Below, one piece after another: positions 2,724 through 9,589 of a stretch of DNA of 9,589 nt. The stretch is from Myxococcota bacterium (lineage in GTDB: Bacteria; Myxococcota_A; UBA9160; PR03): positions 1 through 9,589 of the forward strand of contig JASJBO010000288.1 of NCBI GenBank assembly GCA_030066475.1, given 5' to 3'. The notes below the pieces were generated by a model. It was not told the origin of the DNA. It was given only the letters and a program-made list of their open reading frames with translations, and did not search any database. A program made the position numbers and the translations under genes. Numbering within the stretch: the stretch's first letter is position 1; the number at the start of each line of letters is the position of its first letter.

Positions 2724-2773
2724 CGTCGCCCGCGCCGAGTCCTTACCCTGGGTGGGGAGGCGATGGCAGCGCG

Positions 2774-5347
2774 ATGGTGCCGCTCCCCACGCAGCGCTGG
2801 CGCCGCGCCACGGCAGGTCTGGCGATCGCCTGGGCCCTGCTGGCGCTGGCGGTCTCGATCCAGGCCAACCTGTTCAAGACGGGTCTGTCGATGCCCTTCC
2901 ACACCACCGCGGGCAGCGGCGACCTGATCGTGAGCTGGGCCGCGCCGGACGCCGCCCGGGCCGGTGTGTCGGTGGGCGACCGCGTGATCAGCGTGGACGG
3001 CCTCTCGGGCTTCGCGTGGACCCGCGAGCGCCGCTGGGAGGAGCTGCGCGCCGGCGTCCCCAATCGCTACGAGTTCTCGACGCGCGACGGCGTGCGCTAC
3101 GCGCTCGACCTCGAGCCGATCCCGGCCACCGACGGTCCGGCGCTCCAGGTGCCGATCTACGCGGCCTCGCTGCTGGTGGGAGCGGTCTACCTCGGCCTCG
3201 GCCTGCTGGTCTGGATGCTGCGCCAGGGACGCGCCGAGTCCTGGGCGTTCCTGCTGATGGGCTCGGCGATGGCCACCCAGCTCTTCACGGCCTTCGAGAC
3301 CTTCCGCGCTCCGCTCGGCTACGAGCGCACGGTGTGGAACCTGTTCTTCCTGGGCGCCGCGATCTTCCACCTGTTCACCTCGTATCCGTTCGAGCCGCGT
3401 TGGATCGCCGAGCGGCCCATGCTGCGCCGCATCCCCTACTGGCTCGCGGCGGCGATGGCGCTGCCGATCCTGTTCGAGCGCCAGCTGCGCCTCCCCGAGG
3501 GCCTGCTGCCCGCCATCGGCTTCTTCACGGCGGTGCTGCTGTCGCTCACGTGCGTGGGGATCCTGGCGCGCGAGCGCTATCGCAACCGCGAGCACGAGGA
3601 GGCCGACCGCGCCGACGTGATGCTGTTCGGCGCCCTGGTGAGCTTCGTGCCGGTGGTGGTCCTGCTGCTGCTCGAGATGTTCACCCCCCTGCGCTTCCCG
3701 TTCTGGACCGCCCTGCTCTGGTTCGGGCTGTTCCCGCTCTCGATCGCCTACGGCATCGTGCGCCGCCAGCTCTTCGACATCCGCCACCTGGCGCGCTCCT
3801 CGGTCGCCTACGGTGCCGCCACGGTGGCCATCACCGGCCTCTACGCGCTGCTCGTGGCGGGGGCGGATGCGCTGGTGGCGCGCGGCGTGATGAGCGCGCG
3901 CTCCCCGCAGTTCTCTCTGATCTTCCTGTTCTTCGCGATCCTCGCGTTCAACCCCCTGCGCAACCGCACCCAGCGCATCGTCGACCGCGTCTTCGACCGC
4001 GACCGCGTCACCTACCGGCAGGCCGTCCAGGAGATCTCCGAGGCGATGGTCTCGATGCTCTCCGTGAAGGAGATCGTCGACCGCATCGTGCGCACGCTCA
4101 CCGACTCGATGGGCGTGGACCGCGCCATGGTGATGCTGCTCGACGACGGCGAGCGCAGCCTGCGCCCCGAGGCCGCCGGCGGACGCTGGCCCGAGGGCGC
4201 CGAGCGCCTCGAGCTCCGCATGGACCACCCGGTGTGCAAGCTGCTCTGGATGCGCCGCGAGGAGCTCTCTCGCGCCCAGGTGGCGGCCGAGGCGGACCCG
4301 CGCGTCCGTGACGACTGCCTCCAGGTGTTCGATCGCCTCGAGGCCGCGCTGCTGGTGCCCGTGCTGTTCGGCGTCGACATGCTGGGCCTGATCGCGGTGG
4401 GACGAAAGCTCTCGGGCGAGCGCTTCCATCCCGAGGACCGGCAGCTGCTGCTCACGCTCGCCAACCAGAGCTCGATCGCGATCGAGAACGCGAAGGCCTT
4501 CGACGAGATCGCGAAGCTCAACGAGACGCTCGAGGCGCGCGTCGAGGAGCGCACCCGCGAGCTGCAGGACACCCAGACCCAGCTGATGCACAGCGAGAAG
4601 ATGCGCACCCTGGGCCAGCTGGTGGCGGGCGTGGCGCACGAGCTGAACAACCCGATCGGCTTCGTGCACGCCAATCTCAAGCTGCTCGAGGAGTACGTTG
4701 CGAAGCTCGAGCGCCTGCGCGAGGCGGGCCAGGACACGACGCGGGCGCGCGACGCGATCGCCAAGCTGCTGTCGCGCAGCCGCGAGGGGACCGACCGCGT
4801 CAAGAAGATCGTCGCCGATCTGCGGACGTTCTCGCGCATGGACCAGGAGGAGCTCCAGGACGCCGATCTCAACCAGGAGATCGAGCGCACCCTCACCCTG
4901 ATGGAGCCGCGCACCCGCGGCGGCATCGAGATCGAGCGGCACTTCGGCGCGCTGCCGCGCGTGCGCTGCCACGCCGGCCAGCTCAACCAGGTGTTCATGA
5001 ACCTGCTGATGAACGCGTGCGACGCGATCGCACCACAGGGCCGCATCGCGATCCGCACCGAGCCGCGCGGCACCGAGGTGCGGCTGGTGTTCGAGGACGA
5101 CGGGCCCGGGATTCCGGAGTCGGTGCGCGACCGCATCTTCGAGCCGTTCTTCACCACCAAGCCGGTGGGACAGGGCACCGGGCTCGGGCTGTCGCTGTCG
5201 CACAGCATCATCGAGCGCCACGGCGGTCGGATCTCGGTGGACGAGGCGCCCGCCGGCGGCACCCGCTTCGTCATCGAGCTGCCGGTCGACGCGGGGCCCG
5301 CGCTCGCGCAGGCCGAGGCCGACGAGGCGACCTCGGCAACCGCCTAG
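2774..5347 (+). CDS. Membrane sensor histidine kinase (PDZ-like, ~10 TM, GAF, HisKA, HATPase), second of a tandem pair
   Basis: Paralogue of the preceding gene with the same domain order, 857 aa. The PDZ-like loop [11 protein letters not shown] starts at residue 66. A polytopic membrane region ends in a stretch close to [18 protein letters not shown], matching NPLRSRMQRLVDRIFDRD in the first kinase. GAF and coiled coil follow, then HELNNPIGF with His622, N-box Asn743/Asn747/Asp750, DGPG at 776-779 and GTGLGL at 801-806. All catalytic motifs are intact, so it should be an active kinase. The gap after the first kinase is 50 nt. ATG 2774 is chosen because [17 protein letters not shown] then aligns with RRATALLALAWALLALG of the paralogue. 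GGGGAGG at 2754-2760 is rather far upstream (13 nt), and a TTG at 2720 overlapping the previous stop is an alternative coupled start. The input halves differ more than the kinase cores. Confidence 0.94.
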
Positions 5348-9004: not shown

Positions 9005-9032
9005 TTGACTCCGACGGCGGAAGGCTTATGAT
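9005..9032 (+). promoter_or_regulatory. Sigma70-type promoter of the histone gene
   Basis: TTGACT (9005-9010), a 16-nt spacer and TATGAT (9027-9032) match the housekeeping consensus at five of six positions in each hexamer. A T-rich stretch (ATTTTTCC) sits immediately upstream of the -35. In a window this GC-rich, it is the best promoter-like match seen. Transcription would begin near 9039, leaving a leader of about 110 nt before ATG 9153. Confidence 0.65.
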
Positions 9033-9135: not shown

Positions 9136-9152
9136 GACATTGGGGGGAACCA

Positions 9153-9368
9153 ATGGCTGCCCGGAAGAAGAAGAAGACTGCGCGCCGCGCCAAGGCGCCG
9201 GCCGAGCTGATCATCTCGAAGGCCCGCGTGAAGAACGCGGTGAAGAAGTGCAACGTGGGGAGCGACTTCTACCCCGCACTCGACGCCGCCGTGCGCGAGG
9301 CGATCAAGGGCGCCGAGGCGCGTGCGGTCGGGAACAAGCGCAAGACCCTGAAGCCGGTGGACCTGTAG
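9153..9368 (+). CDS. Small bacterial histone-fold DNA-binding protein with basic N-terminal tail
   Basis: A 71-aa, strongly basic protein (20 Lys/Arg against 6 Asp/Glu) that I read as a bacterial histone; such proteins bind and organise DNA in the nucleoid as dimers. Seen: a tail of about 17 residues (ARKKKKTARRAKAPAE), a likely short alpha-1 (about 22-32, SKARVKNAVKK), a long alpha-2 (about 37-60, SDFYPALDAAVREAIKGAEARA) and the loop NKRKTLKPVDL. The RKT loop and the spacing Arg63 to Asp70 match the Arg-Asp clamp of archaeal histones (HMfB RKTIKAED, R52/D59). The chain stops one residue after that Asp, so alpha-3 is absent or vestigial. Short alpha-3 regions are, as I recall, reported for Bdellovibrio-type bacterial histones. 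ATG 9153 follows the G-rich site 9142-9147. A different basic nucleoid protein is the alternative, but there is no HU-like signature. Confidence 0.82.
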   Translation: MAARKKKKTARRAKAPAELIISKARVKNAVKKCNVGSDFYPALDAAVREAIKGAEARAVGNKRKTLKPVDL

Positions 9369-9382
9369 CCGGACTCGGGATC

Positions 9383-9438
9383 TCCGCCGCTCGCGCGGCG
9401 GACCAGGGGCCCGCCGGGCAATGCCCGGCGGGCCCTTT
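9383..9438 (+). terminator. Tandem hairpins forming the histone gene terminator
   Basis: A first hairpin has TCCGCCG (9383-9389) pairing with CGGCGGA (9396-9402). A second, much stronger one has complementary arms at 9407-9420 and 9422-9435 (GGGCCCGCCGGGCA and TGCCCGGCGGGCCC); with a realistic 3-5 nt loop this leaves 12-13 G/C pairs. It is followed directly by TTT (9436-9438). The U-tract is short, but the stem and its position 15-70 nt after the stop fit intrinsic termination. Confidence 0.8.
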
Positions 9439-9496
9439 CCGCAAGCGAAGGCGAAGCCGGAGCGCGCAGCGAGCCGCAGGCGAGCGAAGTCCACCA
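9439..9496. repeat. Dispersed GC-rich repeat, third copy
   Basis: It begins with CCGCAAGCGAAGGCGAAGCC immediately after the terminator's T-tract. It contains the same GAGCGCGCAGCGAGCCGCAG core as the left-edge copies and ends GCGAAGTCCACCA. It differs from those copies by CCGG for CCGA in the core and GAAGTCC for GAGTCC at the end. Orientation is the same as at 1-110. Confidence 0.88.
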
Positions 9497-9534: not shown

Positions 9535-9589
9535 CCGCAAGCGCAGGCGAAGCCGGAGCGCGCAGCGAGCCGCAGGCGAGCGAAGTCCA
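9535..9589. repeat. Dispersed GC-rich repeat, fourth copy, cut by the window end
   Basis: It starts CCGCAAGCGCAGGCGAAGCC and runs to GCGAAGTCCA at the window edge. It is nearly identical to the third copy, with one change (GCGC for GCGA) in the first ten bases. The distance from the start of the third copy is 96 bp. Confidence 0.88.

Follow-up and report, generated by a model that had tools for sequence, protein, structure and literature searches.

Face-to-face (FtF) histones are defined by a homotetramer that is predicted to be ring- or torus-shaped (Schwab et al., 2024, PMC11390915). In the sequence logo given in that work, R48 and N52 join the dimers and an RxTxxxxD motif shapes loop 2. 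In the H. volcanii protein D4GZE0, the interface arginine forms a salt bridge with the carboxyl of residue 55, which directly follows the clamp aspartate D54, and the bacterial dimer histones published there are described as lacking R48 and N52. The Leptospira histone HLp is reported to build its tetramer through R49, N53 and R55 and to wrap about 60 bp of DNA (Hu et al., 2025, PMC12701072). Here we describe a gene on the first 9,589 nucleotides of contig JASJBO010000288.1 of a Myxococcota bacterium (assembly GCA_030066475.1, forward strand; hereafter the window, meaning this whole stretch), which encodes a genuine bacterial histone of the described FtF kind with a basic tail. The family is already known, since Schwab et al. 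(2024) reported that Myxococcota have FtF histones and that the tails of bacterial FtF histones mostly carry positive charge. The present analysis adds near-universal carriage in one class, an archaeal-like sequence, a conserved tail start and an invariant cysteine; a search of the open-access literature, preprints excluded, turned up no study that treats this class together with its histone.

The open reading frame (ORF) starts with the ATG at 9153, stops at 9366-9368 and gives the product MAARKKKKTARRAKAPAELIISKARVKNAVKKCNVGSDFYPALDAAVREAIKGAEARAVGNKRKTLKPVDL. It is a real, conserved gene rather than a chance ORF, because 1467 database proteins match it at E≤1e-3 and its conserved core is free of gaps. 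Conservation counts given below come from the best 120 of these 1467 matches, of which 119 fit the core alignment and one (P0002) did not fit the pattern. The gene and its parts are as follows.

9153..9368, forward strand: coding sequence of the FtF-type histone, 71 residues, stop included (ORF, homologues, alignment, profile and structure searches)
9153..9206, forward strand: basic N-terminal tail MAARKKKKTARRAKAPAE, residues 1-18 (model; tail statistics of relatives)
9219..9239, forward strand: helix alpha1, modelled residues 23-29 (predicted structure; conservation)
9240..9266, forward strand: loop 1 region, residues 30-38, holding C33 (predicted structure; alignment)
9267..9332, forward strand: helix alpha2, residues 39-60, holding the FtF tetramer residue R57 (predicted structure; alignment; papers)
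9333..9353, forward strand: loop 2, residues 61-67, with N61 (tetramer), R63 (clamp) and T65 (DNA contact in relatives) (predicted structure; alignment; papers)
9354..9365, forward strand: one-turn alpha3, residues 68-70 with the clamp residue D70, and the C-terminal L71 (predicted structure; alignment)

A first-pass annotation made from the letters alone had read this product as a histone fold with an Arg-Asp clamp, a basic tail with four consecutive lysines and an end right after the clamp aspartate. These features hold up. The loop RKTLKPVDL spans residues 63-71 with R63 and D70 seven residues apart, residues 5-8 are four lysines in a row, and the chain ends at L71, one residue beyond D70. 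The single-chain model (predicted local distance difference test, pLDDT, 80.8) places alpha2 at residues 39-60 and a helical turn at 68-70, while residues 1-11 fall below a pLDDT of 50 and are taken as disordered. The fold is further supported by matches to the solved histones HTkC, HLp and HBb.

The same annotation called the protein a dimer module. The histone module stands, but the dimer-only reading probably does not, and the FtF subtype had been missed. HTkC and HLp lead both the profile and the Foldseek searches: HTkC is the best PDB match both for the single sequence (E 0.013) and for the close-relative profile, and HLp tops both the search with the A4 profile and the structural list. 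Together with the model, these best matches show the histone fold, shortened alpha2 and one-turn alpha3 of FtF histones. The logo residues R48 and N52 are present as R57 and N61, the RxTxxxxD motif is present as R63, T65 and D70, and the conserved alpha1 lysine (K16 in the logo, K11 in D4GZE0) corresponds to K27 by the columns of the A4 alignment. HLp R49, N53, R55 and D62 align with R57, N61, R63 and D70, and the HLp DNA contacts K15, K17, K21 and T57 align with R25, K27, K31 and T65; by this alignment the first three lie in or beside alpha1. Other described types fit less well. The chain is a single 71-residue fold with no Pfam match rather than the two fused histone folds of a DUF1931 pseudodimer (PF09123), and it stops short of the full-length alpha3 that makes the four-helix-bundle contact in HMf-type archaeal nucleosomal histones.

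These positions are strongly conserved. The core is gap-free with the same endpoint in 119 of the 120 best matches; R57, N61, R63, T65, R25, K27, K32 and C33 are found in 119/119 relatives and D70 in 118/119 (the remaining one has Glu), and R57 and N61 also occur in all 54 rows of the A4 alignment. This conservation partly reflects shared recent ancestry, since the 119 are the closest matches. The FtF residues, combined with HTkC and HLp as top matches, suggest that the unit is likely a DNA-wrapping tetramer and not a bare dimer. Because the interface arginine of D4GZE0 bridges to the carboxyl of the residue after the clamp aspartate, we read the ending just after D70 as FtF design and not as a degenerate dimer.

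The tail is conserved in character and, at its start, in sequence. In the 119 relatives the tail has 16-21 residues, of which 6-10 are Lys/Arg and one is acidic; 108 of these tails contain KKK and 70 contain KKKK. The start is near-constant, with M, A, A or V, R or K, K or R, K, and then K or T, and positions 8-12 are looser. A relative at L035 (3135-3380), also seen at L036, has a longer tail of KKATKKATKKATRR-like repeats. We further note that C33 (9249-9251) in loop 1, present in 119/119 relatives, is absent from ten compared haloarchaeal relatives, from HLp and from HTkC. The excluded P0002 (G079 contig C50; L046 320-745, reverse strand) is an in-frame head-to-tail histone doublet whose start, MAQSKAGSEM, is not lysine-rich. 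Its two compared 162-nt halves are identical, so it may be an assembly artefact, or else a recent duplication; its use as a stand-in for the dimer was dropped, as MAFFT spread single-fold tails across its first half. Some of the matches listed carry the names 'histone H3/H4' or 'DUF1931', and three are named 'citrate lyase gamma subunit', which we take as misnaming.

The FtF histone is near-universal in one class. The close-relative profile (A1), run on genomes reached through those holding related loci, matches 75 of 79 genomes in a single order; each of the 75 has one match except the doublet genome G079, which has two. The A4 profile matches 84 of the 90 genomes of one class, 83 of them at E≤1e-18; the remaining one, G093, matches at its zinc-finger histone locus alone. 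Absences are weak evidence, as many of these genomes are fragmented metagenome assemblies. The first-pass remark that histones are uncommon in bacteria may thus hold across bacteria, but it fails in this class, which we take to be GTDB UBA9160, with carriage in 83/90 genomes. Across the phylum, sampled evenly with 282 genomes, A1 matches 57 at E≤1e-10, 56 in the class and one outside (G133, E 4.6e-11); at this threshold the profile would overlook FtF histones of more distant sequence in the rest of the phylum. Carriage also extends beyond the class: five of 27 carrier genomes (G018, G024, G025, G026 and G027) lie outside the 90 class genomes, and at least three of those outside carry it, G018, G024 and G025 matching at E 4.7e-32, 4.2e-22 and 5.2e-22 and the other two weakly. 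Two of these three are labelled Planctomycetota. Contigs of the relatives are labelled mostly Myxococcota, Myxococcales or Deltaproteobacteria, with some Planctomycetota, Methylomirabilota, Spirochaeta or simply bacterium. HU/IHF (PF00216) is found in 89/90 class genomes, usually with two matches, and in all 27 genomes of the first carrier set (27 of 38 loci used).

We consider it probable that the protein is an FtF alpha3 histone of an archaeal-like branch that packages chromosomal DNA, with tetramer, wrapping and tail function extrapolated from relatives. Two chains would pair head to tail through alpha2, as shown in relatives, and two such dimers would close a ring at both ends through R57, N61, R63 and the C-terminal carboxylate, by analogy with HTkC and HLp. 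The basic rim may then be wrapped by about 60 bp of DNA through R25, K27, K31 and T65, as in HLp, and the disordered Lys/Arg tail may make additional non-specific contacts with this DNA or with DNA close by. Given the co-occurrence in related genomes, the histone would work beside HU/IHF and not replace it, under a presumed division of labour.

The protein could instead be a DNA-bending dimer like Bdellovibrio HBb in which the FtF residues are relics. It shares the short alpha2 and alpha3 with HBb, its structural Z to HBb is level with its Z to FtF histones, and two HLp interface residues are changed, S52 and T61 being replaced by G60 and V69. Bacterial dimer histones, however, lack R48/N52, whereas the corresponding R57/N61 are kept in every one of the 119 relatives; sequence profiles favour HTkC and HLp, identity to HBb is 22%, and separate dimer-type histones occur in some of the same genomes. 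A dimer is therefore unlikely. Even less credible is a basic non-histone protein whose loop resembles that of histones by chance. The lysine-rich composition would suit such a protein, as would the Pfam results, with no match to the window protein and no family matching more than two of 35 relatives (best E 0.056). NCBIfam and Rfam yielded nothing informative for the histone or its leader, and no phage record matched up to E 1. A single match of the histone to NCBIfam, MinE (E 0.067; 13.3 bits where the cut-off is 108), was judged to be chance. With sequence and structure matches to the solved histones HTkC, HLp and HBb and 46-50% identity to haloarchaeal FtF histones, this reading is strongly disfavoured and very improbable.

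A different question is whether the protein, although a histone in fold, is a minor or conditional component of the nucleoid, with bulk packaging left to HU/IHF. The presence of HU/IHF in nearly all class genomes speaks for this. So does Leptospira, whose FtF histone is regarded as the main organiser and which is reported to have no HU (PMC12701072), as does the expression reported for HTkC, 34 times below that of HTkA (PMC11390915). Near-universality, a recurring consensus-like promoter and strong sequence conservation suggest a central role instead, and we hold a minor role to be possible but doubtful. It overlaps the proposal of an FtF packaging histone rather than excluding it.

The surroundings of the gene include three further elements.

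9005..9032, forward strand: sigma-70-like promoter TTGACT-16-TATGAT, with a leader of about 114 nt from a predicted start site (promoter scan)
9142..9149, forward strand: putative G-rich ribosome-binding-site-like stretch GGGGGGAA ahead of the ATG (read from the sequence)
9407..9435, forward strand: perfect 14-bp inverted repeat 3' of the stop, a terminator-like hairpin followed by three Ts only (repeat search)

The promoter pattern occurs once, whereas 50 shuffles gave a mean of 0.0. The upstream set comprised the window and 38 loci, reduced to 36 stretches as two lacked a start and one stretch was too short; promoter-like sites (≥9/12) lie upstream of the gene in 21 of the 36, counting the window, where 100 shuffled sets gave 0.68 on average and never more than 3. 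These sites support the first-pass call of an own promoter, though not the strength claimed for it. At the terminator claimed there, the inverted repeat is perfect and 9366-9445 folds at z -4.46, but only three Ts follow and a terminator scan called nothing at the repeat. A search by eye, without a covariation test, for a conserved leader RNA in 15 aligned upstream stretches found nothing consistent past the promoter and a GGG stretch. Upstream on the same strand lies an LLM F420-type oxidoreductase gene (TIGR03559, 5392-6426). It recurs upstream on the same strand at 64-69% identity in 11 of 38 loci (L001, L003, L005, L007, L011, L013, L014, L015, L017, L019 and L021), six of which also match the GAF histidine kinase. 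At L031, a twelfth locus, the match to the oxidoreductase reaches only 30%, and many loci are too short to judge. Two adjacent, similar-looking histidine kinases lie at 129-2723 (GAF, HisKA and HATPase by Pfam) and about 2760-5347 (by ORF reading). A GC-rich 55-nt direct repeat, 98% identical, occupies 9439-9493 and 9535-9589, its second copy running to the last base of the window.

The class also carries other histones. A4 finds weaker loci, 14 of which were fetched (L048-L061). Eight are short with a dimer-type loop, have Asn at the N61 place in 0/8 and have Arg at the R57 place only in L048; six combine an N-terminal Cys/His (ZZ-like) domain with a histone fold. The Cys/His spacing fits seven of the eight ligands published for ZZ histones (compared with PMC11390915), and Pfam names no ZZ finger in the domain, its best match being a C1 domain at E 0.098. 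A profile of five such sequences matches 53/90 class genomes at E≤1e-50, and 51 of the 53 also carry the FtF histone, a co-occurrence that alone proves nothing given the near-universality of the latter. Reading of histone tails by ZZ histones was judged unlikely by Schwab et al. (2024, PMC11390915) on the grounds that bacterial tails lack a conserved sequence, that only half of the ZZ proteomes have a second histone and that the pocket residues of the eukaryotic domain are not kept. For this class, two of these objections, the first and the second, look weaker, because the tail start is conserved and the Cys/His type co-occurs with the FtF histone; the objection from pocket residues stands. 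A speculative and on balance improbable scenario is that an archaeal-type FtF histone entered the ancestor of this Myxococcota class, gained a basic tail and the loop-1 cysteine, and became fixed in a layered chromatin of tailed FtF histone, HU/IHF, often a ZZ-like and sometimes a dimer-type histone. In its boldest step the ZZ-like domain would read the tail start M-A-A-[RK]-[KR]-K-K as a bacterial histone-tail reader.

Judged by identity, which is 46-50% over the core to ten haloarchaeal FtF histones, 37% to HTkC, 28% to HLp and 22% to HBb, the window histone is nearer to archaeal FtF histones than to HLp. In a tree of 31 sequences, a branch with support 98/96 places the myxococcotal and haloarchaeal rows, HTkC and one planctomycete row on one side and HLp together with HLp-like planctomycete, dimer and zinc-finger histones on the other. 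A single bacterial FtF clade is disfavoured by the approximately unbiased test (p-AU 0.0325), which is marginal and concerns a group chosen after seeing the tree, though motivated by the clusters of PMC12701072. The placement is a lead, since the tree rests on 54 columns and drew program warnings about the small number of columns and about long branches coming together, the position of HTkC beside the myxococcotal rows included. As midpoint rooting gives no direction, a transfer from archaea to bacteria is what we infer rather than read from the tree. The arrangement differs from PMC12701072, where 'bacterial FtF' and 'archaeal FtF' form separate clusters, and fits the idea of multiple transfers raised there and in PMC11390915. 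A class in which nearly every genome has a tailed, archaeal-like FtF histone beside HU/IHF would open three questions to testing: single or repeated acquisition of FtF histones by bacteria, the sharing of one chromosome between histones and HU, and the function of a basic tail in cells that lack a nucleus.

Among known systems, HTkC of Thermococcus kodakarensis (PDB 9F2C; PMC11390915) has the fold and short alpha3 in common with the window histone, but it is a 59-residue chain with a longer loop 1, no basic tail and an archaeal host. The haloarchaeal FtF histones (DUF1931-annotated, mostly 55 residues, including the published D4GZE0) align without core gaps and end at the same C-terminal position, and the rows compared differ in being acidic, tailless and without the loop-1 cysteine. 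HLp of Leptospira perolatii (PDB 9QT0-9QT2; PMC12701072) has residues equivalent to R57, N61, R63 and D70, yet it falls across the main split of the tree and Leptospira is reported to lack HU, unlike this class with its HU/IHF. HBb (Bd0055; PDB 8CMP, 8FVX), the Bdellovibrio dimer histone, has the fold, the R-D clamp and the one-turn alpha3 but lacks R48/N52. The FtF histones from Myxococcota and Planctomycetota whose tails are positively charged (PMC11390915) agree with the window histone in family, phylum and tail character, and it most likely belongs to this published group. Bacterial tails are described there as having no conserved sequence, whereas here the tail start is conserved among the 119 closest matches.
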